From positions 1,256,501-1,320,500 of the forward strand of contig JARUPZ010000026.1 in assembly GCA_031213475.1 (NCBI GenBank): a stretch of 64,000 bases of DNA, written 5' to 3'. The notes under the pieces are model-generated. The model was not told where the DNA came from. It saw only the letters and a list, made by a program, of their open reading frames with translations, and made no database searches. Shown here piece after piece: positions 1,970 to 32,100 of the stretch. The stretch comes from Nereocystis luetkeana (lineage: Eukaryota > Sar > Phaeophyceae > Laminariales > Laminariaceae). The position numbers and the translations under genes are program-made. The first letter of the stretch is position 1; each line of letters opens with the position of its first letter.

Positions 1970-2992
1970 TCAGCTATTATACGTGACTGCTAGGAAAAAA
2001 ATCAACACAAACGAAAAAATCACCCACAGAAGGAAGAAATCACGAAAGACGGTGGCCATGACCCAGTACCACGCCTTACGCTTATCGTTCAGGGCGACGA
2101 TGACAGGCCTGAAGATGGCTTCAAGTTTCTCGCCCATCAAATTTGTCTTGGTCGTCATCAAAATTCCCGTGACCAAGAAACACGGCACTATCACGTAGCC
2201 AGCAATTGTGACGCCAACCGGGGCGTCAGTCCATCCTCCTCCATGCCAAGCGCCACCCAGAACGTACAGCAGTGAGGTGACCCAGTACCCAACACCCCAC
2301 CCCACCAGCATCGAAGAGATTCGAGCATCTGCGCAGCTCCCGCACCCCTGTCCAACCGCGGCTCGGTCGGAGGAAGAGGGCTCATCTAGAAGAACGGCAG
2401 AGCGTTCGTTCCTTCGGAATAGACACCCGCATGATTTCAAGACAAGGCCAGTCACCAGAACAACAACTGAAAACATCAACATCCCCAGATTTTGCGTCAA
2501 CGTAATCTTATCAAAATCCTCTCCTTCGTCAAACTGGAAAGGAGGGACATCAAAAGCCACAGGCAGCCCAAAGGCCCAGAATAAAATCGACCAACTGATG
2601 ATCCCCTGAGCAAGCCACAAGGAGCGAACCGCGTAGAAACAACGATCGTCTCCGAAACGCTCTTTCGCTCCCTTGATGACCTCACAGAAACGGGTACACC
2701 CCCGCGAAACGACAAAACGGACCGTGACTTCATGAACGCCCCCGCTTGCTTCGCTGCAAGATTCGAGGAAATTATGCAGGGCGTTGCCCAATACAAAAGA
2801 GCACAGCGCCGTGGCCGCTGGAGATACCGCTAGATAGAACCAGCTGGGCAAAACGTCCAGAGCCTCCGAGGAATCTCCAACATACACCACTGCCACCACC
2901 GCCAGCACGAAGCTGATCCAGACGGCGAATATCGCCCAAACCAGACGCTGTCCCTTCTTAACCGTGATGAGAAACGCGTAGGCCTTCGCGTC
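1970..2992 (-). CDS. Gene A exon 3: C-terminal membrane domain
   Basis: This exon encodes 340 residues ending at a stop at 1970-1972. The acceptor is TTTCTTCAG before a GAC (Asp) codon. Hydrophobic stretches lie at about local residues 17-38, 51-73, 118-147, 168-189, 226-248, 259-280 and 314-337, giving seven likely membrane helices. Landmarks shared with gene B are YVGDSS after the first helix, a LWLAQ/VWLAQ motif in the third, LVGWG(V/I)GYWV in the fifth, and an APVGVTI/APIAVTI segment leading to VIPCFL in the sixth. The loop around residues 190-222 is Ser/Cys-rich and varies between the copies. No catalytic motif is visible. The frame also runs four codons upstream into a chance ATG, but conservation with gene B starts exactly at the acceptor. 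Confidence 0.8.
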   Translation of the reverse strand, partial: DAKAYAFLITVKKGQRLVWAIFAVWISFVLAVVAVVYVGDSSEALDVLPSWFYLAVSPAATALCSFVLGNALHNFLESCSEASGGVHEVTVRFVVSRGCTRFCEVIKGAKERFGDDRCFYAVRSLWLAQGIISWSILFWAFGLPVAFDVPPFQFDEGEDFDKITLTQNLGMLMFSVVVLVTGLVLKSCGCLFRRNERSAVLLDEPSSSDRAAVGQGCGSCADARISSMLVGWGVGYWVTSLLYVLGGAWHGGGWTDAPVGVTIAGYVIVPCFLVTGILMTTKTNLMGEKLEAIFRPVIVALNDKRKAWYWVMATVFRDFFLLWVIFSFVLIFFLAVTYNS

Positions 2993-3986
2993 CTGAAGAA
3001 ACACAGGGACGAACGGGTCGGGGAAGAAGCACGTTAGTCGACGTATGTTCGCGCCTAGTCTTCAATGTACACTATACTGGCTCCCCAGCACGAAACGAGT
3101 AATTTGAGCAGGCGTAGAAACCTGGTTCGACACGATCCTTGAATGATCTTAAGCGTGGGCTAGTTTCCGCGGAATAAAAATAGAGTCGAGCTTCCGCTGT
3201 TTGCGTGTTTTCTGAATCGAACAGCAATATTAGCCTTAAATCGTGCGTTAGCCTTGCGTTTGTTTTGGGCCTCTCCTTATCCGTTAACCTTTACGCACCT
3301 CTCGACAACCAATTAACATCTATCTATCTATCTATCTATCTATGTAGTGCGTACCGTAGGGGACCCCTGGGTATGTATGCGCGCGGCGTTTGTTTGTGAA
3401 TCAATCTCTTTAAGGTTACAATTATTATTATAGCTGCGCACGGAGTCTCTTGCTGGTGTTGAGTGAAGATAAACCACCTTTAACTTTCACGAACACCATC
3501 CCGACTCCTGGTCTATCCTTGGGTCTGACAATCACGTCGGTTTTGGTATGTGTTTTCGGACGTGCCCTACCTCCTCACACGTATCGCGTGTTGCCGCCAA
3601 TACTGGTGTGATCAAACATAACAGGTGTGCATTATATTCATAGTTATGGCAATCTAAACGTTCGGTATATATATGATGTGTAGGAGGACACGAATACCAC
3701 GGGTGACCAGAATAAATAGAACCAAATATTGTGAGTAAAAGTAGGGAAACATGTAGTTTTTTTTTTGTACCGTAGGTTCCACAGTGCTTCATGTGGTCCG
3801 CCATAATAGTACTCTATTCGGGAAGCGAATGGGCTGAACTGTCAATTTCGAAAACTCGTACAACGACGCACCGTAGGACAGGAGGCAGGCGCAAAACAAA
3901 GGCAGAAACGAAAAAGTCACCATCTCGTTCAGTTCTTCTCCTTAATAACCTGGGGTATATACCAGGAAAGATAATATGTATATATA

Positions 3987-4017
<31 letters not shown>

Positions 4018-6187
4018 GATGATGTTGTTGCTGTTGTTCTCACATTAACTCACAATACAATGCAATCCGCGGTCGCAGGACAGGCTCTAATAACTCTGGA
4101 GTGGAAGAAATACCTCAAGTAAAACAGAGGCAGAAAACAAAAAAACAAGCATACGCACTCCACCACTGCGGACACCAGGGAAGCAAAATACATATATATA
4201 TATATACCTGGTATATATTTTACATTCGGATGAGCTAGGCATGGGTAGGAGGTTTGTGCCTATCTTTGGTTTGTGCGGTGGACGCATCTGGCCGGTCTCC
4301 TTCTAGTCGCGAACGTATTTGCTGCACGGTTTGCGCGTGCATCCTCGTTGGCGAGAAAGCTCATTTCAGACACATGCACCGCTTTCTGACTGCACCCCCA
4401 CTTTGAGGACAGCTTACTCGGGAGTGGACCCGTTTACGTGTCTATGGGCAGTCGACTACGTAAGCAAGAAGAGTATAACGTAGAAGACTTGCGGTCATAC
4501 AGGATGAACGCCGAATCTATGCAGGTATAGGTGGATCAATTTTTCGAAGCAAACTAAATCGGCGCGACGACAAAACGTCGACACATGGACTCGATACGGC
4601 GTGTGGTGATGGGCAGACACACCAGCTGGGGGGAACGCACTGTACCACCGTTAACACCCAAAAATAGGCAGCTACACATATCTTCCTGCAAAACATAGTA
4701 CGCTTTCACTTCGTTATGTTAGAGCACACGATGTGTGGAGATAAGTGATGAGCACCAAGGAAGCGCGGAAGCATCGTGTAGAAGAAAATGTATCGCTTTC
4801 GTATACCACTTACCAGGTCCGCGACGAATAGCACGAGCATCGCGTTAATCACCACCGTCGCATCCTCGTTTTCCGTCGACATCAAGACCTTCATCGCCGT
4901 GCTTATCATGATCCCATACACCACGAGAAGGCCAACGCCGAAAACGCGGTGAGCAGTACTTACGCTATTGGTCGTCAGAGAGAACCCAGCGCGGAGATCA
5001 AAAAGAGTTGTGGCAACAAGCAGGTACATCGCTGGGAATATCGCCGCCAGTCGGTAGCCACGTCGCCCACCACTGCTGCTGCTGCCGTCGCCGCCGTCGT
5101 TCCCCGCGTGGGACGAGGAGTCGTTCTCCGCTAGGTAGAGCAACGCGACATAAAGAAGCCCTTGTATCTGGGAACGCGAGGCGAAAGGTGGGCGTGTGTC
5201 CCGTTTTTACATACGCGGTTCAAAATACACAATAGAGGTTGAGCCATCCCACAGTAGGGGTGGACCAGACGTTCCTGAACCCCTCACATTAGGAGCTCAA
5301 TATCTCGCCAAAAACTAAACCTGGGAGAACTTTGTTCGTGCCACCTGACCGGCACGTGTATGCGCTAGTAGTCCTAACACGAATATACGTGAAAAAAATG
5401 CATCCTAGCTGGTAGTTACTCAATTGGTCAGAGACCTTTGGCCCAAAACGTGCTATCCCTACCGTGGGGTGGCTCGGTTGTGTTTTTTAGTCTTGAGGTG
5501 TTTTTGCACGGTATTTTCAAGAACTCCCCTGTCGCGAAACATTTTCTCACGAATGAAGACGCGGGCCGCTTGCAGACGGACTAGTTGTAGCCCATGGGCC
5601 GCAGTATTCCATGTGTATCGCCGTCTCAACATGCTTGATCATTGAGTTGCGCGTACACCATTCGTTGGTCGAGATGAAAATGATGGTTGCAGGGCGCCTA
5701 CACTCTTCGATGCTCCTCACACAAAAAGCTCTACAGTATGCCCCTCACCAGATCCTTCCCCATTGGGTGCAAATCTATGAGCAATCTCCATGGCCTACCA
5801 GGTACCAGGTATGCACTTTCGATATATAGGTTATGATGATTTTTGTACATCACAAGCAAAGCAAAGGGTATTTTGTTGCTCTATGTCGGGGTACTACTGT
5901 GGTTTCAGAGTTGTGGACAAAACCGCACATCGGTCCGACAGATAATGAAGCATGGTGTACATCATGGGCCAACCCACCAAGAGTACAAGCCAACCGATGA
6001 GCTTGTCGGACAACTGGAGGTCGCCGTCGTCGTTTCCAGCTGTTTCTCCGCACGCCCACAGATAGACGGAATCGGAGAGGCGACGGCGAACCCAAGCAGC
6101 CCGTCCCTTCGCTGTGGCCGCCATCATTTCTTGGGTTGCATCTTCTTGTACTTCGCAGGTCAACAAAAATTCAAGCGGTGGAGAATG
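1970..6187 (-). CDS. Gene A: polytopic membrane protein, three visible exons
   Basis: Joined exons on the minus strand are 6187(or less)..5978, 5167..4814 and 2992..1970, with introns of 810 and 1821 nt. Donors are GTGGGT and GTAAGT, both acceptors end in CAG, and both introns lie between codons (phase 0). The joined product has at most 70 + 118 + 340 residues and about ten or eleven hydrophobic segments, which suggests an integral membrane protein. The paralogue at 28-32 kb has identical exon borders, which strongly supports the model. The true 5' end is unresolved: exon 1 is open from a stop at 6188-6190, and earlier exons may exist. I do not recognise the family and propose no substrate. 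Intron 2 carries an ATCT microsatellite, a GTT microsatellite and a dispersed repeat. Confidence 0.75.
3318..3343. repeat. ATCT tetranucleotide microsatellite
   Basis: About six uninterrupted units of the tetranucleotide, inside intron 2 of gene A. Confidence 0.9.
3988..4037. repeat. GTT trinucleotide microsatellite
   Basis: About ten pure GTT units, then a degraded continuation (GAT, GCT interruptions), immediately before a dispersed repeat. The second copy of that repeat at 11.38 kb is also preceded by a GTT run, so the microsatellite appears to belong to the repeat. Confidence 0.9.
4034..4188 (+). repeat. Dispersed repeat R155, copy 1 (in intron 2 of gene A)
   Basis: About 155 bp matching 11381-11540 at high identity. 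It begins gttctcacattaactcac, passes through ggtcgcaggacaggctc and ggaagaaatacctcaagta, and ends ccactgcggacaccaggga. It follows a GTT tract and is followed by an AT-rich palindromic stretch. The shared 5' GTT run and A-rich downstream sequence suggest a short retroposed element, but no tRNA-like promoter boxes are seen. Confidence 0.8.
4814..5167 (-). CDS. Gene A exon 2: helices 1b-4
   Basis: This exon has 118 codons, between acceptor TTCCCAG and donor GTAAGT, both phase 0. It starts IQGLLYVALLYLAEN, which completes the helix begun by the LIGWLVLL end of exon 1. A Ser/Gly-rich acidic linker follows, then helices containing MYLLVATTLFDLRAGFSL and FGVGLLVVYGIMIS, and a last helix ending LVLFVADL at the donor. 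Gene B shows the same layout with DLRAGFSL, LLVVYGIMI and LFIADL conserved and a different linker. The first in-frame Met is well inside the exon, so it cannot be the gene's start if exon 1 is joined as proposed. Confidence 0.8.
5978..6187 (-). CDS. Gene A exon 1 (5' border uncertain)
   Basis: The frame is open from just inside a stop at 6188-6190 down to the donor GTGGGT at 5977. The conserved part reads RRRLSDSVYLWACGE, then an acidic stretch, then LSDKLIGWLVLL, where the first membrane helix begins. Gene B (HRHLPDSIYIWACGE) and the orphan exon at 60.3 kb (HRHLPDSIYLWTCGE) match it and use donors at the same codon. A Met at 6164-6166 is the first possible start in the frame. A splice acceptor within 6100-6187 is equally possible, because the three copies lose similarity upstream of the RRRL/HRHL motif. 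Confidence 0.65.
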
Positions 6188-10539: not shown

Positions 10540-10684
10540 TTTTTTGTTTTTTTTTGTTTTTTGTTTGCTCATTCATCCCATTTATTGTCTTCGCACATCT
10601 TCTTCTCTCTCTCTCCTTCCGACTCGTACCTCAGATCCGGGGTCACATAGCAGGCTCTTCTTCCCCCTTCCCGCTACAGTATAC
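10540..10684 (-). mobile_element. 5'-truncated copy of the tRNA-derived SINE
   Basis: On the minus strand this matches only the 3' half of the SINE seen complete at 23.68 and 37.26 kb: a crippled acc/tagcggg start, then gaagagcctgctatgtgacc, ccggatctgagtt-like sequence, GA-rich stretch, gtgcgaaga and a gatgaatgagc end running into a CAAAAAA-rich tail. The tRNA-like head is missing, as expected for incomplete reverse transcription. Confidence 0.8.
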
Positions 10685-12333: not shown

Positions 12334-12645
12334 CGGTCGTCCCGGTGGTTCAAGTGGTTTACCTCGAATTCTACATGTGTTTGAGTCCTGGGTTCGAGCC
12401 CCAGGTGGGTCGGATATTTGACTATATTTGCAAAAACAAAAAATAAAAATATTCAATTGTTGAGAGCGCCTTGCAGCGTGGGTAGGCACAATTCAATGCG
12501 AGTCGACGAGGGAGAAAAGGCTGAAATATTCTCGCGATAAAAATGAAGGCACGTACCGTAGCGGGAAGGGGGTAGAAGAGCCTGCTATGTGACCCCGGAT
12601 ATGAGTTTCGAGTTGGAAGGAGAAAGATAAGATGTGCAAATATAA
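12334..12645 (+). mobile_element. tRNA-derived SINE, copy 1
   Basis: The head reads ccggtggttcaagtggtt (A-box like) and gggttcgagccccag (B-box match to GGTTCGANTCC), spaced as in a tRNA gene. The body follows with ttgagagcgccttgc, aggcacaattcaatgcgagt, ctcgcgataaaaatgaagg and gaagagcctgctatgtgacc. The 3' end is cut after gatgtgcaaa, without the A-rich tail found in copies 2 and 3. It lies directly 5' of the decayed LINE. Confidence 0.9.
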
Positions 12646-13510: not shown

Positions 13511-14184
13511 CTTGGTGGGAAAAATACCGACGAAAGAGTGTCTGTTCGTACTAATAATGGGTGTCATCGCGCGAACTGGACAGCGGAAGGAAGGGTGCGG
13601 TGACGATGGAAGTAGAGTGCTGGGAGCGTAAGGACGTGATGTTTGTATCGATAATGGCAGACGGCTCCTGTCGTTCGCCATCAATTGAAAGCTTGATCTC
13701 ACCAACACGTTTTTCAGCACGCGTAAGGGTGGGATATCGCATACTCACAACGGCACCGGCCCGAATGACCGTAAGTGGATCGACTTCATCCTAACCCGTC
13801 AAGTCCATCGACGTAGAGTAAAAGATGCTAAAGTCGTCTCACAGCCTGCTGCCCCAGCTAAGGCTGACTCAGACCACACCATCTTGTATATCAATGTCCG
13901 ACTCGGTGGTCACTTTGCGCCCAACAGACAAACACGTAGACCGACAAAAGGCCGAGAGTGAGACAGGCAACTTTTTATGTCCGATGGAAAGTCTCGTGAA
14001 CGAGTAATCGCGAGGGTCAGTTCCACTCTCAACCAGCCTATCCAACCCCGTAATACGTCTGGTATGGTTGAGTGTTTCACCTCGGCTGTTATTGATGCAG
14101 TCGAAAAAGAGGTACTACCCCCTGCACGTCGCCACCGCAGACATGGATGGTGAGAGTCTGCCGAAACCTTGGCCGCATTCATAC

Positions 14185-16442
14185 CAGCATGGACAGCGAG
14201 GGAGGATGCACGACAATTCTTGCGTGCCCACCCCCGGGATATACCCCCGTGGAAGACCCTGAGATCTGCGTGTTGTGCGAACCTGCAGAAGGTGATTACC
14301 GCAGGACTTCATGCGTACTACGAAGCGTACCTTGCCGAAACCGAACGACTCCTATCGAACAACGACCAGGGAGGCTTTTACAAGCACCTTAAGAGTACGG
14401 TAGGATTGAAAGGGACTAAAGCGAGGAGCGAACAGTTCATTACGGACGAGGATGGCACGATCTTACGTGCGTGATAAGGTGCGAATTCGTGAACGATGAG
14501 CGGGGTTTTACCACAAACTCTTGAACACGAAGTCGCTGAAACTCGATTCCACGATAGTCGACCTTTTGCCACCGCGACCGCCTAAACTGTCGCTTGAAGA
14601 TGAACCATCCATAGACGAGATGGCAGAAGCACTTAAGGGGATGTCGAATTGGAAAGCTGTCGGGCCAGATGGTCTCCCGGTCGAACACCTAAAAATCGAC
14701 CACCCGGCATTCGCTAAGTGCCTTCACAACATCCTTGTCAATATTTGGTTAACAGGAGAAGTCCCTCAGCAATGAAAAGATACGATCATCAAGGTCCTTC
14801 ACAAAACGAAGGATCGAACTGACTGCAACAACAACAGAAATATTTCGCTTGTTGCCCACGCAGGCGAAGTGTTGTTGAAAATCGTCGCGTCCCGCCTCAG
14901 CAACTACTACGAGACCGAAGAACTACTCCCTGAAAAACAGTGCGGCTTCCGCCTCGCACGATCAACGATTGATATGTTGATCGTCGTGAGCCGGTTGCAA
15001 GAGCTCAGACGACAGAGGGAAATCCCCTTATACGTGTGCTTCATCGATCTGCAGAACGCGTACGACTCTGTCGACCGAGAGCTGTTATGGAAGGTACTCA
15101 CACGCTTTGGCGTACCAACCAAGATGCTGAGAATTATTCGTAATTTCCACGATTGCATGCGGGCTCGCGTGCGTACTGAGGACGGCGAGCACTCGGAATG
15201 ATTTGATGTCACGCAGGGGCTGCGGCAAGGCTGTGTACTATCACCGTTACTGTTCAGCGGGTTCTTCGCTGCTGCGTTACACGTCGTACTAGTACGCTTC
15301 AGCCAAGACGAAGCCATCGTAAGGGATTTGGTCCAACTCAGTGATGCTGGAGTAGTTCGAACATGGAAGCAGAGCCATTGGCGTGCGTGCGAAGGTCTGT
15401 ATGGGGCATGTTGTACGCCGATGATGCAGGAATTGTCTCGAAGTCGGCTGAAGGAATCGCGAAAACGATGACAGTCGTCGTGACTGTCTTCGAAACAGCA
15501 GGCCTCACGGTGTCGGAAAAGAAGACAAAGACAACATTCCTACAAATACCAGACCAGACAACCCTCACACCACCGCATGTCATCGAAGCGGCAGGCCAGA
15601 GGTATAAGCAGGCGACCCAGTTATTATACCTAGGCGCCATTATCCACGAAGACGCTGCCGTCTCGCTCAAAATCGACCGACGGATCCGCCTCATGCGAGC
15701 ATGCCTCAAACGGTTCGACCCGGAGTTGTATGATAGGACGACCGCCCCCCTTAGCCTTGAAGTGCGAATGATGAAGGCCGAGATGATTGAGACCCTGCTG
15801 TACGGGTGGGTGATGTGGATCCTCAGAGCGGAACACTTTGCCAAGCTTCGAACGGCTCACCACCAAGTCCTGTTGCGAGTCATTGGCTTCCAGCGCCGAC
15901 TTCGTACTGACAATGCCACCCTCACGTACGCGAAGGCCCTCAAGATGACACGTTGCGAGAGCATCGAAACGAACATTCGTAAACGGCGGCTCTTCCTTGC
16001 GGGGGGCGTGGCACGGCAAAGCAAGGAGCGATTACCCAGTCGGGTAATGTTCGGGACGATAACTGGTGGGGAGAACCCGAGACCAGGCGGGCAGTGTAAT
16101 ACTTGGCATAGATGCATAGTCGAAGACCTTAGGGACTTCCGAGCCACCGAAGGGTCAACGGAAGTTGCCCCCTTGGTGTTTGGAGTTGATACCGCGTTGT
16201 GGTCCACTGCAGCCAAAAAGGCGGGGAAGTGGTACCGGGGGATCCTTGAAGCAGCCGAACGGGTCATGGTGAGGTGGCACGAGGCTGAGGCTGAGATGAG
16301 TAGGGAGCGCCGCACATCCGCCGTAGATGGTGTCCAAGGGAACGGGGGGGGAGGGGGCAACAGGAGAAGTGGCAGAAAGCCCGACCAAGGGAATGCGGAA
16401 GGGGGGGGGGGGACAGGAGGGGTAGAAGGGAAACTGCGGTAG
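14185..16442 (+). pseudogene. Degenerate reverse transcriptase of LINE copy 1
   Basis: This aligns along its length with the open frame of LINE copy 2. Recognisable blocks are [34 protein letters not shown] and the catalytic YADDAG. It is inactivated by a small insertion near 14468-14473 (ILRA then stop), TGG-to-TGA changes at 14773-14775 and 15199-15201, and other frame shifts. The last 359 codons (15363-16442) are still open, from just before YADD to a Gly-rich C-terminus ending next to a run of G residues. Open frames inside it are remnants, not genes. Confidence 0.85.
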
Positions 16443-17188
16443 ACGAAAGTAGGAAGGAGATGGCAGACAGGGTAGCAAGGCACCAGGCCGACTAGGAAGT
16501 AGAACATGACCATACTACTAGTGCCACCAACTGGTGCAGGCTGGTTCGAACGTGGTCTTCCCTTGTCTTTTTTTTTTGTTTTGTTTTTTTCTTTTCTTTC
16601 TGGCGCTGACGCTCCGTGATTTTTATTTTATTGTGTTTCTCTTCCCTTTCTGATTAATACCTGGTACGCCGTACTGAAAAGAGCCGTGTGGCGTGGTTGG
16701 ATGACGAACCTGTTCTGCTCGTTTCGTATTGTCTGGCGCCTAGGGGCTGGGCATAGTTGACGAACGCAGGGCGGAGACGGCAGTCTGGGTAGCAAGGTAC
16801 CAGGTGGATTAGCAGGGGGAACCTGGCTATACTACTCATACCACAAACTGCTGCCGCCACCAGGAGGGTGCTTTGGGCTTAGGTCTGCCTCTTATTTCCC
16901 CTTTATTATTATTTCTTCCTTGATTCTATGTCTTACTCTGTTTACAAGCAGTGGTGTAACACTGTTTCTGTTTTTTGTTTCTTTTTTCCAGCTCGTTCTT
17001 TTCCAAATGTTGGCCACCTCGCCTGCGGGGGGGGTGGCACAACAGATTGTTTCTTGTAGTTTTTGCTTTTATTGTTTTCTGTATTTTTTTTCTCTTTCGA
17101 TTTGTCTACTTTGTTTCTGTTTTCTCTTTGATTGTTCCCTTTCGTTTCCCTATTTCATAGATTGTGTATGTCGTGCCAGTCGTATCTA

Positions 17189-17293
17189 TTACGGGGGGCC
17201 ATAGTTAACGAGACCAAATATTTTTAGTAAAAAAGGTCAAACATATAGTTTATTATGTGTACCGTAGACCCTGTTAACTATGCCCCCACGTAA
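17189..17293 (+). mobile_element. TA-flanked MITE, copy 1 (inside LINE copy 1)
   Basis: This 105-bp element has terminal inverted repeats starting TTACGGGGGGCCATAGTTAA and ending in the near-complement (GTTAACTATGCCCCCACGTAA), flanked by TA at 17187-17188 and 17294-17295. LINE copy 2 keeps the unoccupied site (one TA, near 18737-18742 on the opposite strand), so the ends and the 2-bp TA duplication are directly visible. TA duplication is typical of the Tc1/mariner superfamily. The element encodes nothing and would need a transposase from elsewhere. Confidence 0.92.
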
Positions 17294-17480
17294 TAGTATG
17301 ATGACATGGCTTTGCATTGCCCACTGCAGTGCTCACTGCATACGGGGCAACGTAGTATCTCTGTGGCGTAGCTTTGTGACCACAGAACTTGTATCTCTTC
17401 TAGGACTGAAGAATCGGCACGGACACTGGTTGTGCTGGGTGTCGACGGGTAGAAATAACGGTTTATTGTAAAGAACACAC

Positions 17481-18540
17481 ACACCAAATTTAAATGCCAT
17501 TATTGCCAATATTTCCTCTGAAAAAACAATCTGATAAAGTTCCCTTCGTTACCAGAAGCGGTATGTACCACGGAAGTCAACCCATTCCCGCGGTACGTAT
17601 CCAGTTCGAGGGTGGTCTTCTCCAAGAAGAGGGCGACACAACCTAATGAGCTGAACTGGACGTATCACATCTATATACGAATATGTACTATATTCCTCCT
17701 ATCTATGGAAGCATCGTGCGTTCGGTTCTTCGATACTTATTCGGTGTTTACGCTCTTGTTGTTCGTGGTGTCGAGAGTTTCCTCCTCGAAATTCGTCGGA
17801 GGGTATGTACGAGGTGTTATGTGACGTCATAGAGTACCCGTATGCGCTGTATACTACTGCTATTAAGAGTTTAATTACAAACCTTATGACATACCACAAA
17901 GTATACTTCTCCTGCTACCTTTGTTTGCAAACCTTATTATGGCATACCAACTCAAAGTGAGCTTCCTAAAGCATGGTGAATGTACTCCTCCTGTAATGTA
18001 GTTAGTCCTGTTGCTCCTTGTCAAAGGCAGGATGTGGGCCATCGCCCACCCACAGCAAGCAGTCTTCGAGATCGACCAGCGCCCCGTTTTTGTTTACCTG
18101 GTAGGTCACTCTACTGCAGGCTCCAAAAAATATTCTTCCACAAAAGCGTAAGCGCCGTCTTCAACTGCATTTTTTCTAAACCGAACAGCTAGACTAGTAT
18201 AAATAGTATGATCTAGCATACCAACTATATCATAGTCGTCAATTTTTGTTCAACGTTGTTCCAATGTCCCAAAGTGCTGGAGTAACATCCGAAATAAGAG
18301 TAGAGTACTACCGTAGTCGTACTACTGGTGTATACCATCATGTTCCGCACCTTACTATCCAGCGTTATACCCCTGTGATCGTCCCTCTCACGCAGTTGGC
18401 AGCTTCTCTTGGAAGACGTTCCAGTTGTGCGCGGTGTAGAACTAGGGCAGACCGTGAGACAGAGCTGGCAGTGTGAATGTCGGGCGCGAGAAGATTTCAC
18501 AATTATGGTGTGGTTGTTTGGTAGCCCGAGAGTCGACCTG
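17481..18540. other. Spacer between the two inverted LINE copies; no supportable gene
   Basis: About 1 kb separating the converging LINE 3' ends. It holds a short AC run at its left edge, AT-rich unique sequence, and partially repeated accttat(g)acataccac-like segments near 17880-17955. I see no gene. Confidence 0.5.
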
Positions 18541-21500
18541 TGTGTGTGTGTGTGTGTTCTTCACATTAAACCGTTCTTTCTACCCGTCGACATCCAGCAC
18601 AACCAGTGTCCGTGCCGATTCTTCCATCCTAGAAGAGATACAAGTTCTGTGGTCACAAAGCTACGCCACAGAGATACTACGTTGCCACGTGTGCAGTGTG
18701 AACTGCAGTGGGCAATGCAAAGCCATGTCATCATACTAGATACGACAGGCACGACATACGCAATCTATGAAATAGTGAAACGAAAAGAAACAATCAAAGA
18801 GAAAACAAAAACAAGGTAGACAAGTCGAAAAAGAAAAAGAAGAAAAATGAAAGCAAAATCTAAGAGAAACAATCTGTCGTGCCCCCCCCCCCGCAGGCGA
18901 GGTGGCCTACACTTGAAAAAGAACGAGCTGGAAAAAAGAAGAAATAACAAAAGACACCACTGCTTGTGAACAGAGTAAGACAAAGAACCAAGGAGAAAGT
19001 AACAAGGAAAAATAACAAAGGGGAAATAACAGGCAGACCAAAGCCCAAAGCACCTTCTAGGTGGCGGCAGCAGCTTGTGGTACGAGTAGTATAGCCAGGT
19101 TCTCCCTGCTAATCCGCCTGGTACCTTGCTACCCAGACTGCCGTCTCCGCCCTGCGTTCGTCAACTATGCCCAGCCCCTTGGCGTCAGACAATACGAGCC
19201 GAGCAGAGCAGGTTCGTCTTCCAACCACGCCACACGGCTCCTTGAGTACGGCTTATCAATCAGAAAAGGAAGAGGAAGAGAAAAAATGAAATGAAAATCA
19301 CGGAGAGTCAGCGCAAGAAAGAAAAAAAAAAAAGAAAAAAAAAAAAAACAAAAAAAAACAAAAAAAAACAAAAAAAAAAAAAAACAAAACAAAACTAAAA
19401 GAGAAGACAAGGGAAGACCACGTTCGAGCCAGCTGCACCAGTTGGTAGCACTAGTAGTATGGTCATATTCTACTTCCTAGTCGACTTGGTGCCTTGCTAC
19501 CCTGTCTGCCATCTCCTTCCTACTTTCGTCTACCGCCGTTTCCCTTCTACCCCTCCTGTTCCCCCCCCTCTCCGCATTCACTCGGTCGGGCTTTATGCCA
19601 CTTCTCCTGTTGCCCCCTCCCCCCCCGTTCCTTTGGGCACCATCCACGGCGGATGCGCGGCGCTGTCTACTCATCTCAGCCTCAGCCTCGTGCCACCTCA
19701 CCATGAACCGTTCGGCTGCTTCAAGGATCCCCCGGTACCACTTCCCCACCTTTTTGGCTGCAGTGGACCACAACGCGGTCTCAACTCCAAACACCAAGGG
19801 GGCAACTTCCGTTGACCCTTCGGTGGCTCGGAACTCCCTAAGGTCTTCGACTATGCATCTATGCCAAGTCTTACACTGTCCGCCTGGTCTCGGGTTCTCC
19901 CCACCAGCTATCGTCCCGAGCATTACCCGATTGGGTAATCGCTCCTTGCTTTGCCGTGCCACGCCCCCCGCAAAGAAGAGCCGCCGTTTGCGAATGGTCG
20001 TTTCGATGCTCTCGCAGCGTGTCATCTTGAGGGCCTTCGCGTACGAGAGGGTGGCATGGTCAGTACGAAGTCGGCGCTGGAAGCCAATGACTCGCAACAG
20101 GACTTGGTGGTGAGCCGTTCGAAGCTTGGCAAAGTGTTCCGCTCTGAGGGTCCACGTCACACACCCGTACAGCAGGGTCTCAATCACCTCGGCCTTCAGC
20201 ATTCGGACTTTAAGGCTAAGGGGGGCGGTCGTCCTATCATACAACTCCGGGCCGAACCGTTTGAAGCATGCTCGCATGAGGCGGATCCGTCGGTCGATTT
20301 CGAGCGAGAGGTCAGCGTTTTCGTGGATAACGCCGCCTAGGTATAAGAACTGGGTCGTCTGCTTATACCTCTGACCTGCCGCTTCGATGACGAGCGGTGG
20401 TGCGAGGGTTGTCCGGTCTGGTGTTTGTAGGACCATTGTCTCAGTCTTCTTTTCCGACACCGTGAGGCCTGCTGCTTCGAAGACAGTCACGATGACTGTC
20501 ATCATTTTTGCGAGCCCTTCAGCCGACTTCGAGACAATTCCTGCATCGTCGGCGTACAACATGCCCCATACAGACCTTCGCACGCACGCCAATGGCTCCT
20601 CCTTCCCTGTTCGAACTACTCCAGCTTCCAAGAGTTGGACCAAATCCCTTACAATGGCTTCGTCTTGGCTGAAGCGTACTAGTACGACGTGTAACGCAGC
20701 AGCGAAGAACACGTTGAACAGTAACGGTGACAGTACACAGCCTTGCCGCAGCCCCTGCGTGACATCAAACCATTCCGAGAGCTCGCCGTCATCAGTACGC
20801 ACGCGAGCCCGCATGCCATCGTGGAAATTACGGATAATTCTCAGCATCTTGGTTGGTACGCCAAAGCGTGTGAGTACCTTCCATAACAGCTCTCGGTCGA
20901 CAGAGTCGTACGCTTTCTGCAGATCGATGAAGCACACGTATAAGGGGATTTTCCTCTGTCGTCCGAGCTCTTGCAGCCGGCGCACGACGAACAACATATC
21001 AATCGTTGAACGTGCGGGGCGGAAGCCGCACTGTTCCTCGGGGAGTAGTTCCTCGGTCTCGCAGTAGTTGCTGAGGCGGGACGCGACGATTTTCAACAAC
21101 ACTTTGCCTGCGTGGGCAACAAGCGAAATCCCTCTATAGTTGTTGCAGTCAGTTCGATCCTTCTTTTTGTGAAGGACCTTGATGATCGCATCTTTCCATT
21201 GCTGAGGGACTTCTCCTGTTAACCAAACATTGACAAGGATGTTGTGAAAGCGCTGGGCGAATGCCGGGTGGTCGATTTTTAGGAGTTCGACCGGGAGACC
21301 ATCTGGCCCGACAGCTTTCCAATTCGACATCCCCTTCAGTGCTTCGGTCATCTCGTCTATGGATGGTTCATCTTCAAGCGACAGTTTAGGCGGTCGCGGT
21401 GGCAAGAGGTCGATGATCGTGGGATCGAGTTTCAGCGACTTCGTGTTCAAGAGTTTGTGATAAAACCCCGCCCATCGTTCACGAATTCGCACCTTATCCC

Positions 21501-21785
21501 GTAGGATCGTGCCATCCTCGTCCCTAATGAACTGTTCGCTCCTCGCTTTAGTCCCTTCCAATCCTACCGTACTCTTAAGGTGCTTGTAAAAGCCTCTTTG
21601 GTCGTTGTTCGCTAGGAGTCGTTCGGTTTCGGCAAGGTACGCTTCGAAGTACGCATGCAGTCCTGCGGCAATCACCTTCTGCAGGTTCGCACACGCAGAT
21701 CTCAGGGTCTTCCACGCGGTTCTGTCCCGGGGGTGGGCACGCAAGAATTGTCGTGCATCCTCCCTCGCTGTCCATGCTGGCATGT
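18541..21785 (-). mobile_element. LINE copy 2: 5'-truncated, with open reverse transcriptase frame
   Basis: On the minus strand, similarity to LINE copy 1 begins abruptly at about 21785 (ccagcatggacagcgaggga) and runs through the reverse transcriptase frame and a 0.9-kb 3' untranslated region to a tail of (AC)n at 18541-18556. The endonuclease half is missing, the usual result of incomplete reverse transcription at insertion. The 3' untranslated region contains long A/T-runs (near 19320-19385) and internal duplications. The copy cannot move on its own because it lacks the endonuclease and any 5' promoter. Confidence 0.88.
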
Positions 21786-21801
21786 CGGTCTGTGTGACCA
21801 C
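19477..21801 (-). CDS. Reverse transcriptase of LINE copy 2 (774 codons, open)
   Basis: RNA-directed DNA polymerase of a non-LTR retrotransposon. Approximate residues: WKAVGPDG 161-168, the [12 protein letters not shown] block with a catalytic Asp 289-300, [14 protein letters not shown] about 348-362, the YADDAG active site about 415-420, and the LYLGGVI and [13 protein letters not shown] blocks typical of LINE polymerases after it. The C-terminus is Gly/Arg-rich. The frame is open from a GTG at 21801. The first ATG is at 21783, where LINE similarity starts, so the first few codons are flanking DNA and the protein lacks its N-terminal endonuclease. There is no internal stop, unlike copy 1, implying younger age. 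The many plus-strand frames across it are antisense shadows. Confidence 0.9.
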
Positions 21802-22091
21802 ACACCGCTCGTGGAAGTAAAATACCCTATGTTGAACTGAATATGTTTACAAAATTCATCCGGCTCTATTTCCGTGTAGAGGGGTATATCGCATATTCTT
21901 CAATCCTCTACCACCATACCCGGTAGTTGATATGTACCACTATGGCTTTAGATATAGGAACGCGGTTATATTGAATATTGATCCAGAAACGGTCCTTATG
22001 TAACGAGACAGAGTGGTGCAGCATTTTCAAAATATTCGAAATATATACAGATATAATATTCCCGGCCTTATTGGTGCATCTGGTATACACG
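21802..22091. other. No supportable gene
   Basis: AT-rich flank of LINE copy 2. A gagacagagtggt motif near 22004 resembles the ends of the small inverted repeat that follows. Confidence 0.4.
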
Positions 22092-22181: not shown

Positions 22182-22250
22182 GTGTGTGTGTTCTTCACAT
22201 GAAACCGTTCTTTCTACCCACCGACATCCAGCACAACCAGTGTCAGTACG
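22182..22250 (-). mobile_element. LINE 3'-end fragment (about 70 bp)
   Basis: On the minus strand this matches the last 70 bases of the LINE (cactggttgtgctggatgtc-like, then cgggtagaaagaacggttt, then gaagaacacacaca), a very short 5'-truncated insertion ending in the same AC tail. Confidence 0.85.
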
Positions 22251-23677
22251 AGGTATCGATTAAAAAACTACTGAATGAAGCAGTGTTCGTGTCGTCCTGA
22301 ACACTTTGCCGTGCGACTCCGAGAAGGCCAGAGAAAATGCACGGAATATGTAGCATACTGTATACCTGGTACCTGGTAAATCTTATTCGTAGTTCACAGA
22401 TACCCTTGTACTGCTATATTACTATACTCCGTATGAGTTTAAGCGCGTACAGTACCACGTATAATACGTGCCAGGCTCTACGACTACAGTAGTACTATTA
22501 TTGTTGAATGCAAACAACACCAATCACGAAAAGGCCCATCTTGACGGGGAACGCTAAGCGTTGGTACAGCTAAATTATTTTTAATTACACTGAATTTTAA
22601 TAATATTTCGAAAGAAATAGTTGTTTGTTTCCTACAATTATTATTTTTTCCCTCGCCTTCCGACAATGTGCAGCAAGATCATATCGGGACACGACGTATA
22701 TGTCCTATCGTTTTGTTTATTTCTATAACCTGGAATAACGAGCGTCACACAACGAACACCCAGCCGACAAACACCGACGAGCGTGAAGACGACAGCGAAG
22801 GTGTGTGTTGTCGCGTGCGCGCCGCCGCCAGCATCATATTCGTTTGGGTGTCGCAGGAAGGGAAGCTATCACTCTCAGGGTGTCTTGGGTGGGCGGAGGG
22901 GGCCCTCTAACGCCACGTGCGCAATCGCAACGAAACGATGATGCTGATATCGAGGGATCCAACGTATCCTCGGTTGTTTTGCTTCTTTGCTCCGTTTTTC
23001 TGATGGTTGGCCGATCCAGTAGGCCGACGAATTGGGCTAGCGCCCGCCAGCTGTTTTATAGGTGCCACCGCCGGGGTACGATGCCCTATATTGTCTGTGG
23101 GCGTGGATGCGCGGTCGCCTGTCGTAGGGCATCGCGTTTTATCGCCTCGATCGTGATCACCGAAGCGGGCAAGAATCACGTCTCCGACTCCACCGGACTC
23201 CATGGGGGGTGTTGACCCACCATCGACAAGCTATGATACGTCAGTGCTGATCAACTCGCAAATTAAAAACCCTAAAAATATAGACGGGACATAAAACGCA
23301 GATTGCAAAGCAGATTGTCAAGGTAAACTATTATATAATCAGTCGAACTCACAGCTGATGCTACACTGTGATTTAAAAATGAAATGCAACATTCACACCA
23401 AAAAAGACCCAAAAGACTTTTCACTCTCTTTGTCTCCTTTCAATGTGCCTCGATATTGCCTGCTTGATTATTCACTCTTCCTGGCGCAATCAGATGCAAC
23501 TTAGATTGATTACTATCAATAGATTAAACAAATCGAATCAAAACGGAAAACATTGGAGGCCCTGAATGCGATGGGCCCTTGCCCATATTGACCGTTCTTC
23601 AATTATTTCATCGTTCTTGACTATAATAATATAATACTATTAATTCGGAGGACAAGAAAGAGTGAATAGAACCTACC
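22251..23677. other. GC-rich patch with overlapping frames (22.72-23.22 kb), otherwise empty
   Basis: From about 22720 to 23215 GC content is visibly higher than in the flanks and frames are open on both strands together (plus 22805-23215, minus 23203-22907). This could be an exon, a remnant of an element, or chance in a GC-rich tract; no motif decides it. The rest is AT-rich and unremarkable. Confidence 0.3.
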
Positions 23678-24022
23678 GGTCGCCCCGGTGGTTCAAGTGG
23701 TTAACCTCGAATTCTACTTGTTCGAGTCCTGGGTTCGAGCCCCAGGTGGGTCGGACTTTGACTTTATTTGCAAAAATACAATTAAAAAGGATTCAATTGT
23801 TGAGAGCGCCTTGCTGCGTGGGTAGGCACAATTCGATGCGAGTCGACGAGGGAAGAAAATACTAAAATCTTCTCGCGATAAAAATGAAGGCACGTACCGT
23901 AGCGGGAAGGGGGGAGAAGAGCCTGCTATGTGACCCTGGATCTGAGTTACAAGTTGGAAGGAGAGAGAGAAGAAGATGTGCGAAGATAATGAATGGGATG
24001 AGCAAAAAAGAACAGAAAAAAA
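23678..24022 (+). mobile_element. tRNA-derived SINE, copy 2 (complete)
   Basis: About 345 bp. The tRNA-like head (A box tggttcaagtggttaacc, B box gggttcgagcccc) is followed by the body shared with the other copies and a 3' end gaatgggatgagc running into an A-rich tail. An AGTGAA near the 5' side (23661) and at the end of the tail (24022) may be the target duplication, but the match is short. RNA polymerase III would transcribe such an element from the internal boxes; movement needs a LINE reverse transcriptase. Confidence 0.92.
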
Positions 24023-24764
24023 AGTGAAGCCCGTGGTATTTACACTCTGACGATAACTAAACGATACAGGTTTTGGAGGCCATGTGGCACGCTACATTTT
24101 TTTCCCGACTTTCATGTGCACAACACCACTCGTGGTGCGCGTTTTCCACTTGTTCTCGATTTTTACCTGATTTTGGCTCAAATGGATCAGGTATATTAAC
24201 TGATTTTGGCATTTGCCCATTCTTTTTAGATAAGACTTAGTGCAGTAGCATCATATTATAGGAGTTACATTCAGTTAGCCCTTTGCATCGACTGCTTCAA
24301 AGGGGCGATGCCGGTGTATACCGCAGGAAATTTTCACGGTGTGGGTGCACCATGCATTTCAGCAGTGCTGCTGTGGCAAGAGTATCACTTGGCCGCCCCT
24401 CCCCCGTGAACCGTGAATAAAGCGGGTTGGATTCAAGCATTTTTTTTACATTTATTCGCCGCTCCCGAAAGGGGAGGCTGCTGGGATGTTGAATTTACGT
24501 TGTGAGATAAACCCCAATAAAAAATAATAATTCAGATTGAAAGTATGGATGAACGAGCAGAGGTCGGTACCAGTGCTTCGCACGAGTATGGATGACTATT
24601 TAAAGTATTTGCGCTGAAACCCATGCCAAATAATAATTATTAGAAAAACCGCCATCCACCAGCATACATATAGATTTTGATACGTACGCTGACACTCACC
24701 TAAAATAAGTGGGGAATATATGTGAACCATATGGTGGTGCACAAACAGCAGCTAGCTGTACGTA
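24023..24764. other. No supportable gene
   Basis: AT-rich sequence without long frames; no recognised repeat. Confidence 0.4.
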
Positions 24765-24879
24765 GTAGTCGTGGTAGTAGTAGTAGTAGTAGAAGTAGTA
24801 GTATTAATAGTATTAGTAGGAGTAGTTGTGGTAGTAGTAGTCGTAGCTGTAGTAGTAGTATACTGTAGTAGTCGTAGCT

Positions 24880-24946
<67 letters not shown>

Positions 24947-25045
24947 GAGTAAGTAGTAGTAGTAGTAGTAGGAGTAAGTAGTAGGAGTAGGAGTAGTAGG
25001 AGGAGTAGGACTAAGTAGTAGTAGGAGGAGGAGGAGGAGGAGGAG

Positions 25046-25080
<35 letters not shown>

Positions 25081-25095
25081 ATAATAGTAGTAGTT

Positions 25096-25134
<39 letters not shown>

Positions 25135-25186
25135 TTAATAGTAGTAGGAGTAGTAGCAGTTACTAGTAGTAGCAGTAGTAGTAGTA
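24765..25186. repeat. Long TAG/GTA triplet array
   Basis: About 420 bp of (TAG)n with interruptions (TCG, TTG, GAG and GGA blocks), including a pure stretch of over 20 units and an AGG-rich block near 25020-25050. It is the longest of three TAG tracts in the window. Frames through it give Ser, Val or stop runs and are artefacts. Confidence 0.95.
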
Positions 25187-26897: not shown

Positions 26898-28262
26898 ACT
26901 ACTAGTTAGTGTGCTGGCGATGCCCTATATGTAGCACGACGAGACGGTAACACCTTTCTGCAAAAGCAAAACATTGTCTTATTCAGCACAGGATTTCTCC
27001 TACCCTTCAAACTTACCGTCTCGTACCTCTGAAGAAACGACCCCGCTGACCTTTAGGATCACCGTCCGGTCGACAAACCCTGACTCTCCTGTCCCGCCCC
27101 GAGGTTACAACAGACCTCTACCTTCCCATCTCGCCACTACTGCCGTTGCTCTCTCCCGTCGAGACTGAACGAATATCTATACACTTGTTTTCCTGTGCAT
27201 GTGGTTGGGAGACGGCGGCTGTGACTGACACCGTTTGAACATAATTTATCATGATATTAAAATGGTTTTGCTGCAAAAACAAAATACTAGAATTTCGAGA
27301 ATTCCGGTCTTTAAGAAATAAATCAGGAAACGAAGTTTCCGGAAACGACCACTCCAACCACTAAAACACATCCATATTGCATCGACCTCGCACATACTAC
27401 CCACGTGAAAACACATCAAACATCGAACAACCACCAGGACAGCAGGAGCACCGCCATGCTTGACGACGGCACATACATTCGATGAGTACCTCAGGAGTGT
27501 TGCCGATCAACCAACACCACCAACACCACCATCTCCAGCCGCACACGCACGCAGCCCCAGCTCAAAACGACACCGAGCACATCCACCAGAAGATCATCAA
27601 TAAATGCCGCCCCGTCAAGTGGAGGTCAACAAAGTTTCCCCTCCTGTCCCGCCAGGGAATTATCTATGTACCGTCCCGTCCCGTTGTCAACAAACGTGCT
27701 TACAACCCCATCCCCTCAGCGTAGACAATCGTGACTCCTGTACTGTGCAGTCCCGTAGTTAAACTTCGCAATCACCACTATCTCCCGTCACGAATATCCA
27801 ACATCATTGCACTGTACCGCCTCATACCCATGGAAAATATTTACACAAAACCTTTGTCCCATCCCGCTCAGTCCAGCCTATCTACATATTGTATTTTGTG
27901 GGTCCCCGTCTTCAAAGGTTTACCCACTAAACACGACAAACCGATCCCCTCTCGTCTCGAATAGCCAGACACCAAGGGCCGTCAATTGTTTGCCCTGGTG
28001 ACATTGCGCCTTGTGCACTGGGTGAACTGCACAGGGTCACCGAGAAGGCGTTATCATCGAAACTCCACACTCTGGGTTCCTTTTTTTGTGAACGGCTTCA
28101 TGGCAGGATAAAATATCCCAACAGCAAGGCAATAGTCTCGCAAGGTCGGGAGACACCCCATCAACAGATGAGTTTGTGTTTATCGTTCTGCTATTCGAGG
28201 GTATACGCCTGCACTCACATACATCCAATTAGTCGTCGTTGGCCTCGAAACCACGGGGAAGA
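26898..28262. other. No supportable gene; downstream flank of gene B
   Basis: C-rich plus-strand sequence (27.0-27.2 and 27.5-28.0 kb) with several short frames, none with splice borders or recognised motifs. The 3' untranslated region of gene B should lie just left of 28263. Confidence 0.4.
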
Positions 28263-29294
28263 TCATGAAAAACTTCTGCTCAAAAACGTACAATATCCTA
28301 TCCAACAGACAATGAAATCACGAAACACAGACGCCATTGCCCAGTATTCGGCCCTACGCCGGTTTTGCAGTATTTCAGCTGCAGGCCTGATGAAAGCTCC
28401 AAACCTTGCCCCAAGAAAGTTTGTGTCGGCCACCATGAAAACACAACTGAGTAAGAAACACGGTATTACTGTAAAAGATATAATTGTTACAGCAATTGGA
28501 GCATTGTTCCATCCACAGTCATTTTCACGCCAAGAACAGGCCAGCAAATAGAGTAGAGAGATAACCCAATAGCCAATTCCCCACCCGACCAACAGCGAGG
28601 GCAAACGAGAACTTGCACAGCCGCTCCACACCTCTCTCACCCCTCGCCATTGCGACGAATCGGGTAATAATGCCGGAGCACCTGCAACACGATCATGCCT
28701 GGCCCGATAGACGCCCACCGCCTTTGATGCGAGCCCAATGGCGAGTATCGCGCTTGAACCCAGCATAACTAGTTTTTTTTCGTTTAGGACTAGGTGACCG
28801 TTCCTGTTTCCAGTTGAACCAACGTCCGCATCAAATGCAACAGGGAATCCATCATACCTCATGAAGACGAACCAACTACGGACTGCCTGAGCGAGCCATA
28901 CCGAAAGAGTAGCGTAGAAAAAAAACTCTTCTTTTATGCGTGCTTTAGTCTCCTTGATGGCTACGCTGAATGTCACGAAGGTCCTTGCACCTGTGGCCCC
29001 AACCGCTGCATCATCTACGCTCACGTGTGGTTTGCTTAAAAATTCACCGATAGCTTGGAATGCTGAACACATTAGTACTGAGCATAGCGTCACCGCCACA
29101 GGATTAAATGCCCAAACGAACCAGCTAGGCCATTCTTTGAGGGCGTCGTTGTTTTTTTGTAGAAATGGCGACGAATCTCCGACGTAGCCAATTGCGATCA
29201 GCGCTAGCACGAAGCTCATCCCGATAGACTCTAGCGCCCAAAACAGGCGCCATTGTTGAGGAACTGTAGAAAGGAATTTGAGTGCCTTCTCGTC
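28263..29294 (-). CDS. Gene B exon 3: C-terminal membrane domain
   Basis: This exon has 343 residues after acceptor GTGAACAG, starting DEKALKFL (gene A: DAKAYAFL). About seven hydrophobic helices match those of gene A one for one. Conserved landmarks are YVGDSS, VWLAQ, LLVGWGIGYWV, NNAPIAVTI, VIPCFLLS and the RRAEYWAMASVFRDF segment before the last helix (gene A: KAWYWVMATVFRDF). The C-terminal tail is short and ends at a TGA at 28263. Confidence 0.8.
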   Translation of the reverse strand, partial: DEKALKFLSTVPQQWRLFWALESIGMSFVLALIAIGYVGDSSPFLQKNNDALKEWPSWFVWAFNPVAVTLCSVLMCSAFQAIGEFLSKPHVSVDDAAVGATGARTFVTFSVAIKETKARIKEEFFFYATLSVWLAQAVRSWFVFMRYDGFPVAFDADVGSTGNRNGHLVLNEKKLVMLGSSAILAIGLASKAVGVYRARHDRVAGAPALLPDSSQWRGVREVWSGCASSRLPSLLVGWGIGYWVISLLYLLACSWRENDCGWNNAPIAVTIISFTVIPCFLLSCVFMVADTNFLGARFGAFIRPAAEILQNRRRAEYWAMASVFRDFIVCWIGYCTFLSRSFS

Positions 29295-32100
29295 CTGTTC
29301 ACGCAACGATCAAATGGAGGGGGGGGGGGGAGTCACTCGTCGCAAGGTCATTAAAATGTAATTGCATGTGTTCTGCGGGCACCGAAGTGAACAAACAGGA
29401 ATTTGTGCTTCCCCCGTAGGTGCCCGATAGGGAACAATCGATATTTTCGATGCAGTAGTCATCTATAGGTGGCGTCCGGCGTCACCTCGATGTCACCACT
29501 CTTTTACTTTGACGACGCGGCTCGGTTCTACCCGCCTCGACGTAGTTCCCTCTCATCGTCGTTTGACGGCTGCGGGCTCGGCCTACCTTTCCACATCATC
29601 CATCGTATCCCGTGCACGAGGCCCCTCTTAGGCCGCAGATTATGTGGACACGTCTAAAGCAGGTCGCCTCGAGCAACGTGTAAAACACACACATGAAACC
29701 ACACGCATTGTGACTTAGTTACAAACATTAAATCATCTCAAAGATACTTGAAAGAACTGTGTGTTAGCTATGCCCCGTTACCGTGCGGGATGGCTCTCAA
29801 CTGGCATTGACATATATATATATATGCGGTAGATTGAAATTTCCACCGGAATAGACGCGTACTCCAATCTTGGTCTGATGTATTGGATGTTATTTCGTCT
29901 TCTTCGCTCGGTACAGGTGGCTGTTTCCAAATTGTTGATGTTACGATATTTGTGCTGAACGTAAGAGCTGGGTGCATATGTCTTTCGTGACCATTGGTAC
30001 TGGGGGGGAGAATATCGAGTAGCAACCTGTAAAGCTGCCGTTCGAGTTCAATAGGGTGATATGAAAGTCATAAATCTTCATATCAGTCGACGAGGTGGCT
30101 ATGACGCCGTCTCAGACCGATCTCTATTATCCAACCGTCCTTGAGATTGACACAACGCCCGCGGGGGTTGCCAAAATACACGTTCCGACCGTCACAATGA
30201 AGTATGTGTTGTAGCGTGCGCACGCCATACATTCATGCAAAAGAGGTAGGATCCTGCGATCGAATGTTGAACGATCCTCTTTAGAGAGAGAACGACTGAA
30301 TTGTCCTCGTGACAGGTCGTCGTGTCCTTTTTTACTTTTGGTTTTACTCGTTGGTGACAAATTAGTGTTTTGAGCTGATACATGAGGGTTCCTGCTGGAA
30401 ATTACGATAACATCAGCAACCACGTTAAAGTTGATATAACATATGCTCTCGTAGACTCATGGCTACACCGAAGTAAATTACCAGACATTCCACAATCCTC
30501 TTGCGAGACCGAGAGAGGGTGGGGGTTGTCCGGCCACTCACACTATGTGGAACCAAGTATGAGACCGCCTCGCCTTTTGGGTTTTCGGTCATCACTCTCT
30601 CCGCACTGATTTGTTATTCGCTTTGACCTCGAGAAGGAGTGCGCAGTTAGGTGACCGTCCAATCGTGGTGTTTAGCACGCCGGGTGGGTTTGCAAACATG
30701 TAACCGTGCGCTGAAGCACAACGCGTAGGGGTTGCCTTCCTCCTACACTCACCAGGTCAGCAATGAAGAGGACGGTCACTGAATTTAACACCAAGGAGGC
30801 GTTATCGTACGAGGTTGACACCAGCACCGTCATCGACGCGTCGATCATTATCCCGTACACGACAAGCAGGGCAATGCCGAATGCTCGATGACCAGCACAT
30901 GACCCATCCACTAGTAACGAGAAGCCAGCTCGTAAATCGTGGGCGGTAGAAGCGATGAGGAGATACATTGCACCCGTTACTGATGGCAGTAGCAAGCCGG
31001 ACTCCTCGCCGGCGTTGGTATCGGGGTTTGGCACCTTTTCAGCCAAGACGATGAGCGTAGTATAGGCGAATCCTTGCATCTGAACACGACATGAGATCCG
31101 CGGTGAGCGTGCACGGCAATAATACATAAACGACAAACAACAACGTGCGCCGTCAAGTTGAGTATCAACATCGCTTTAGTCTGCGCGTAGACCGATGGCG
31201 ACGCCCCGATGCAAACAAACACAATATCCCTGCGCAACCCGCACTTCTTGGTGCGACTTGTGCGATGGGCATCAAACCGTAAAGCTCGATTTTGGGCGAG
31301 TTATTCAGCGTTGACATTTATATATTGACGGTCTCTCTCCTTCGTGAGCGATAAGGACCACATATCGACCCAAACGCCATTCACTCAAAAAAGGAATTCA
31401 AATACCGTCACAAAACCCTTAGCGACATCTACCCCGGCTAAGCGTTTGCAAGGGGTTCGACCGCATTATTATCGAACTTACTCAAGATTCAGCAGTGAAT
31501 CGAAGATAGGCACGGGTCAGATTCAAGCAGGATTGTCGCACCTCCTGCACAGCTATGAGCACATTGACCCCCTCACTTTTTTATCTTTCCTATTGCACCA
31601 TTCAACAACGAATGGTGGTGCGGAACCACTGGATTTTGAATTTTTCATGAAGTATATGGCTGGTCCAAGCTCTCGGTTGTTTAGTACAGGCTGCTGTGTT
31701 GGCTTCGTACGCCTTATTACAGCAAGGTGAAAACACTCTAAAGGATTAGTCATCCTGACAGACTCACAACGAGAATAAGCCAGCCGACAAGCCTATCGGA
31801 CAAGCTGGGCTCTTTGTCTCTGCCGTCGGCCTTCTCGCCGCACGCCCAAATGTAGATGGAATCGGGAAGATGTCGATGAATCAGGGCAGAACTGGATTCA
31901 GCACTGTTCGTCCCCACTTCGACTTTTATGCCGACGCGGAGAGAATGTATGTGCGGAAATATGGTTTCAATCTCGGCGAGGGCACAGAGGACAGCTCGAA
32001 GGTCAATAGACGTAAAATAATCGAAATATAGATCTACACAGATCCGTATAGTTGCCGGCACCCCTGTCCGACAAGCCTTGTCGGACAGGGGTGCCGGCAA
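28263..32100 (-). CDS. Gene B: polytopic membrane protein, paralogue of gene A
   Basis: Joined exons on the minus strand are 32100(or less)..31768, 31079..30753 and 29294..28263, with introns of 688 and 1458 nt. Both donors are GTGAGT and both acceptors end in CAG, all phase 0 and at exactly the codons used in gene A. The product has at most 111 + 109 + 343 residues with the same array of hydrophobic segments. All three exons are intact, with conserved protein motifs but diverged nucleotides, linkers and introns, which suggests selection on the protein since duplication. The start is unresolved: the exon 1 frame continues upstream into a 47-bp palindrome. The function is unknown. Confidence 0.75.
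29295..30752 (-). other. Intron 2 of gene B
   Basis: Between donor GTGAGT and acceptor CAG. It contains a G-run near 29322, AT palindromes near 29811-29826 and only short chance frames. It shares no evident sequence with intron 2 of gene A. Confidence 0.6.
30753..31079 (-). CDS. Gene B exon 2
   Basis: This exon has 109 codons between acceptor GTTCAG and donor GTGAGT, starting MQGFAYTTLIVLAEK. The linker is acidic and shorter than in gene A. DLRAGFSL, HRAFGIALLVVYGIMI and VTVLFIADL align with the gene A exon and end at the same codon. The Met at the first codon is coincidental to the splice site, since gene A has Ile there. Confidence 0.8.
31768..32100 (-). CDS. Gene B exon 1 (5' border uncertain)
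   Basis: This frame is open and ends LSDRLVGWLILV at a GTGAGT donor. HRHLPDSIYIWACGE is shared with gene A and the orphan exon at 60.3 kb. Upstream of about 31910 the sequence is not similar to the other copies. It reads protein-like (containing SIDLRAVLCALAEIETIF) but may be intron or untranslated, and its outermost part is one arm of a perfect palindrome. Confidence 0.6.

Follow-up and report, generated by a model that had tools for sequence, protein, structure and literature searches.

The analysed window is a 64,000-nucleotide stretch of the Nereocystis luetkeana genome (contig JARUPZ010000026.1, here C26; G000:C26:1256501-1320500), and its minus strand carries two genes, A and B, that encode predicted multi-helix membrane proteins. 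Both belong to a gene family whose copies are mostly clustered in and around the window. The exons located in the two genes are given below, with positions counted from the first letter of the window.

5978..6127, minus strand: gene A exon 1, profile match, conserved part at about 6088-5978, GTGGGT donor after 5978
4814..5167, minus strand: gene A exon 2, CAG acceptor and GTAAGT donor, aligns with exon 2 of nine other copies
1970..2992, minus strand: gene A exon 3, a 340-codon open frame after a CAG acceptor, aligns with ten other copies
31768..31905, minus strand: gene B exon 1 (3' part), GTGAGT donor
30753..31079, minus strand: gene B exon 2, CAG acceptor and GTGAGT donor
28263..29294, minus strand: gene B exon 3, a 343-codon open frame after a CAG acceptor, aligned with the other copies

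At the four joins (5978/5167, 4814/2992, 31768/31079 and 30753/29294), GT donors and AG acceptors are present at the exact bases and the introns are in phase 0. Exon 3 ends with the stop codon TGA in both genes. Gene A could start at the ATG at 6127, but this codon is not conserved across the family. Exon 1 of gene B, of which the 3' part is given, lacks an in-frame ATG as far back as the preceding stop.

The search of the 465 Mb assembly (1987 contigs), in which all copy counts are lower bounds, showed at least 13 places with exon 3 of gene B as the query: 11 of them stop-free, one interrupted by 14 stops and one consisting of a 41-residue piece. The most divergent member used as the query again gave at least 13 places, at the same loci. 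With remnants included, exon 2 of gene B was found in at least 15 places at E <= 0.1 and exon 1 in at least 13 places at E <= 1. The open exon-3 frames of the 11 copies are stop-free over 340-358 codons. Nine of these copies, among them A and B, form a cluster of about 335 kb on C26 (1.2585-1.5929 Mb), and the remaining two are situated on contig C25, at about 371 and 583 kb. The original prediction had assumed a local expansion of four loci in 60 kb; the expansion itself agrees with the nine-copy cluster around the window, but its size has to be corrected to at least 11 copies on two contigs.

Exons 1 and 2 of the nine copies outside the window were located in their 5' flanks (exon 1 of copy L021 lies in L025). 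The first donor is GT in all 11 copies. The second is GT in 8 of 10 copies and GC in the other two, L017 and L018, where GCAAGT stands at the codon at which other copies use GT; L015, as the eleventh copy, has GT. The acceptors are AG before exon 2 (10/10) and before exon 3 (11/11). In 10 of the 11 copies, exon 2 is in frame and both introns are in phase 0 at the same codons. In L015, located on C26 at about 1.568-1.572 Mb, the frame of exon 2 is broken close to its 5' end, and this copy may be a recent pseudogene or carry an assembly error. The expected three exons with introns at identical codons were therefore recovered, but the plan is not complete, as the exon with the start codon is missing from it. 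An upstream exon probably carries the start codon, because in five of the 11 copies (B, L015, L019, L021 and L022) the stretch from the last upstream stop to the conserved part of exon 1 contains no in-frame ATG. In a translated comparison of up to 6 kb of upstream sequence, the best 59 rows of matches linked some pairs of copies, but none of these matches was common to the family in a manner that would indicate a coding exon.

The joined proteins of A and B are 41% identical (203 of 500 aligned columns). According to the Nei-Gojobori method, applied to 485 aligned codons, the nonsynonymous divergence (dN) between the two genes is 0.48 and the synonymous divergence (dS) 1.64, which gives a dN/dS of 0.29, a rough value with dS near saturation. 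Moreover, the third base differs at 51 of the 74 codons at which A and B share a V, P, T, A or G, and the two copies are therefore old. The same analysis was extended to the ten copies with three exons in frame (L015 left out), and the 44 of 45 pairs with finite dS showed dN/dS between 0.155 and 0.414. For the closest pair, L016 and L018, saturation is no problem, and the ratio is 0.24 (dS 0.44, dN 0.10). The selection at the protein level that had been proposed for A and B is thus upheld, with a ratio far below 1 for this pair and ratios below 1 for the pairs of the family as well. In the midpoint-rooted tree of the ten copies, a moderately supported split (83/87) sets the two C25 copies together, apart from those on C26. 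L016 and L018 have about 1.5 kb of upstream sequence in common at 65% identity, as is expected from local duplication. Several intact gene copies with common intron positions and dN/dS below 1, clustered in the genome and accompanied by remnants, constitute a putatively new gene family under purifying selection.

The resolved part of the protein is 488-504 residues long, with 37 codons of exon 1 counted. As anticipated for multi-helix membrane proteins, the Kyte-Doolittle analysis at a threshold of 1.2 indicated 11 hydrophobic segments in A and 10 in B, and hydrophobicity averaged over ten copies (threshold 0.9) gave 11 segments, numbered below as predicted transmembrane segments TM1-TM11. Loops 1, 3, 5, 7 and 9 are net negative, loops 4, 6, 8 and 10 are net positive and loop 2 is neutral. 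From the 11 segments and this alternation of loop charge, a topology of about 11 membrane crossings is predicted, which would start from a cytosolic N terminus and leave the C terminus on the outer side. The mean pairwise identity of the ten copies peaks in TM4 (80%), followed by TM9 (71%); the lowest values, 21-26%, are those of loops 1, 6, 7 and 8 if the short C-terminal tail (15%) is set aside. The residues inside predicted helices that are invariant in the ten copies include N, D, D and K of TM4, P of TM6 and TM10, and W in TM1, TM5, TM7, TM9 and TM11.

The profile searches did not assign the family to any described one, in line with the original prediction. No match in Pfam was obtained for the A and B proteins at E up to 1 or for the family consensus at E up to 10, a setting at which filters drop most matches above about 0.1, and the 11 exon-3 and 10 exon-2 sequences gave merely scattered marginal lines. 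Likewise, only marginal lines were found in NCBIfam and PHROGs, and among the PDB sequences there was no match with B or with the consensus (the latter at E up to 5). The lines for MASE4, DUF2569, MatE, DUF7704 and DUF1206, as well as those for a type VI secretion system (T6SS) effector, a histidine kinase and other library entries, concern one or two members each (E 0.022-0.63) and were judged to be due to chance, as were the PDB profile lines for antibody chains (E 0.076 up) and MCM22 (E 0.25 up). MatE, the only transporter line in the exon-3 Pfam search, was found for one of the 11 members, with E 0.12. Scans with exact peptide patterns, by which distant relatives could be missed, revealed no relatives in viral or prokaryotic contigs, and entries close to the genome of the window may be absent from the material scanned. 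Among the papers listed by the literature searches, none was recognised as a description of the family, as judged from titles and the starts of abstracts. On these searches, the family matches no family in Pfam, NCBIfam, PHROGs or PDB, and it is called unassigned by these libraries alone rather than unannotated, because no eukaryotic protein collection was part of the comparison.

Besides genes A and B, the window contains the following traces of the family.

60290..60412, minus strand: remnant C, exon 1 only, found by tblastn and by the genome search with exon 1, profile 48 bits
51599..51922, plus strand: remnant D, exon 2, found by tblastn, profile 83 bits at 51674-51922
39706..39864, minus strand: weak remnant, TM9 part of exon 3, profile 13.7 bits

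C and D had been counted as further loci of the family, but they proved to be remnants and not genes: neither tblastn nor the profile scan detected an exon 2 or 3 accompanying C within the window, and the exon 2 of D has four in-frame stops (three TAG and one TAA). In the base-reversed window, the identical profile scan detected nothing above its print limit of 7 bits. Two weaker profile pieces, at 37967-37695 (10.4 bits) and 33207-33079 (8.2 bits), are no more than possible remnants. Outside the window, remnants are present at C26:1375646 (14 in-frame stops) and C26:1486535 (one stop), with further pieces on contigs C5 and C35.

Two reverse-transcriptase elements lie in inverted orientation between A and B, at 18548-21846 on the minus strand and at about 14180-17484 on the plus strand. 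The complementarity of their arms is 82-96%, and it is 94% in the two longest, of 1038 and 903 bases. On the minus strand, the element retains a 789-codon open frame (19477-21846) that matches PF00078 with E 1e-35, and the 365-codon frame of the plus-strand copy gives a sub-threshold match (E 4e-5). A dispersed repeat of up to about 350 bases, with 81-95% identity and in both orientations, occurs at 10550-10681, 12417-12632, 23676-24023 and 37267-37613. A, B and L018 also have a repeat in common in their upstream flanks. The window further contains a GTA microsatellite (24762-25186; 141 units of 3, 83% matches), a 168-base tandem duplication with a TAG run inside (514-854) and a 42-base tandem repeat with the core GGCGGTAGCTCATCTGC, present twice about 1.8 kb apart (61907-62090 and 63909-63998). 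No transfer RNA and no Rfam family were detected in the window. Elsewhere in the genome, a made-up peptide with motifs of mannuronan C5-epimerase matched 79 times, and 58 of these matches are in arrays on contigs C8 (about 8.6-10.0 Mb) and C14 (about 5.7-6.3 Mb). Expansions of this enzyme are a mark of brown algae, above all of kelps, and this one marker search points to a brown alga as the host.

As to function, we tentatively prefer a family of about 11 transmembrane segments, duplicating and decaying locally, that would form a pathway through the membrane as a transporter or a channel. This is a best guess, and it is favoured because the conserved part of the protein is the membrane core with buried polar residues; the invariant polar and charged residues in the predicted helices would be more readily explained by a core for permeation or transport than by a mere scaffold. 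Local duplication and decay would have produced the 11 copies with an open exon 3 and the remnants. The conserved core of TM1-TM5, together with the N...D.D.K motif in TM4 and the GWG in TM9, may be what moves or conducts in all members, and regulation or substrate may be tuned by the variable loops (TM1-2, 5-6, 6-7, 7-8 and 8-9).

Several observations weigh against the transporter or channel function or the topology on which it is drawn. The N-terminal tail, predicted inside, is net acidic (4.0 K+R, 7.7 D+E), the C-terminal tail, predicted outside, is slightly basic (0.9 vs 0.4), and the N-terminal exon absent from the plan could add a segment. No internal repeat, a feature of many transporters, was found when the N part was compared with the C part by hhalign at six cut points (probability at most 0.5%), and none of the transporter or channel models in Pfam was credibly matched. 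The structure prediction that had been suggested as a check was of no help: for exon 3 alone, as a contiguous translation, the predicted local distance difference test (pLDDT) score was 36.7 with two sequences and 42.8 with 11, too poor for fold comparison, so that the model is no fold evidence. Foldseek with the 42.8-pLDDT model gave nothing at E <= 0.001 (best E 0.28), which, with so poor a model, is no evidence either way.

It is possible, although on balance unlikely, that the family is a very diverged branch of a known multi-spanning superfamily, e.g., with an ion-channel or scramblase fold, beyond the reach of profile recognition. Small, fast-evolving membrane families often lose profile similarity, and 11 sequences are too few for a usable fold prediction; the consensus nevertheless remained without a match in Pfam or PDB even at the permissive thresholds given above. 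Such a hidden link to a known fold would be compatible with either a transport or a receptor function.

The main rival to a transporter or channel is a chemosensory-type receptor repertoire that diversifies by local duplication and decay and perhaps senses pheromones or environmental molecules, which we regard as rather improbable. With its clustered ageing copies, remnants, conserved core and variable loops, the family looks like the chemoreceptor arrays of animals. However, it has about eleven segments and not seven, its copy number is small, no receptor family appears among the Pfam lines, and the outside loops, when pooled, are no more variable than the inside ones (mean identity 0.36 vs 0.37). 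A still narrower version, a fold specific to brown algae with a clustered receptor or transporter repertoire confined to this lineage, e.g., receptors for gamete pheromones, appears very improbable. To our knowledge, no receptors for brown algal gamete pheromones have been identified. Brown algae evolved complex multicellularity independently, and large parts of their membrane signalling and transport remain poorly annotated.

That the copies are mostly decaying or transposon-borne and without present function is hardly credible: the remnants in and outside the window, the frame break of L015 and the reverse-transcriptase copies between A and B point in this direction, but eleven stop-free exon-3 frames, dN/dS well below 1 in all 44 pairs and the nature of the copies, diverged genes with introns and not near-identical inserts, largely rule it out for the family as a whole; decay is accepted for C, D and the other remnants, and it is possible for L015. 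A selected, clustered membrane family missed by the profile libraries is a concrete candidate set of 11 copies with exact coordinates, for which a transporter or channel would be our first choice.

Among the known systems, the U/V sex chromosomes of brown algae carry putative transmembrane gametologues (PMC12592211); the present family is likened to them by description, as putative transmembrane proteins of brown algae, and nothing at hand places its cluster on a sex chromosome. Neither an internal repeat nor an MFS or LeuT-like line links the family to MFS-like or LeuT-like transporters. The NPAAVT of exon 3, found in 5 of the 11 aligned copies (NPxAVT in 8 of 11), resembles what we take to be the first NPA motif of aquaporins. 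Aquaporins have six helices with two NPA half-helices, whereas this family has one such motif only and about eleven segments; the likeness is, in our judgement, a chance resemblance, and an aquaporin was ruled out by the wrong segment number and by the lack of a MIP profile in Pfam for A and B, the 11 exon-3 sequences and the consensus. Unlike the seven-helix receptors (G protein-coupled receptors and the insect or plant gustatory-like ones), the family has eleven segments as predicted from its averaged hydrophobicity, and no receptor profile in Pfam matched it, but it shares with them the arrays of diverging copies with remnants. There is no credible sequence match in Pfam or PDB to the OSCA/TMEM63, TMC and anoctamin channels and scramblases, the fold comparison being limited by the low pLDDT, and the predicted orientation (N terminus inside, C terminus outside) is opposite to that of the OSCA proteins. 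These proteins have 10-11 segments, and in the number of membrane segments the family is similar to them.

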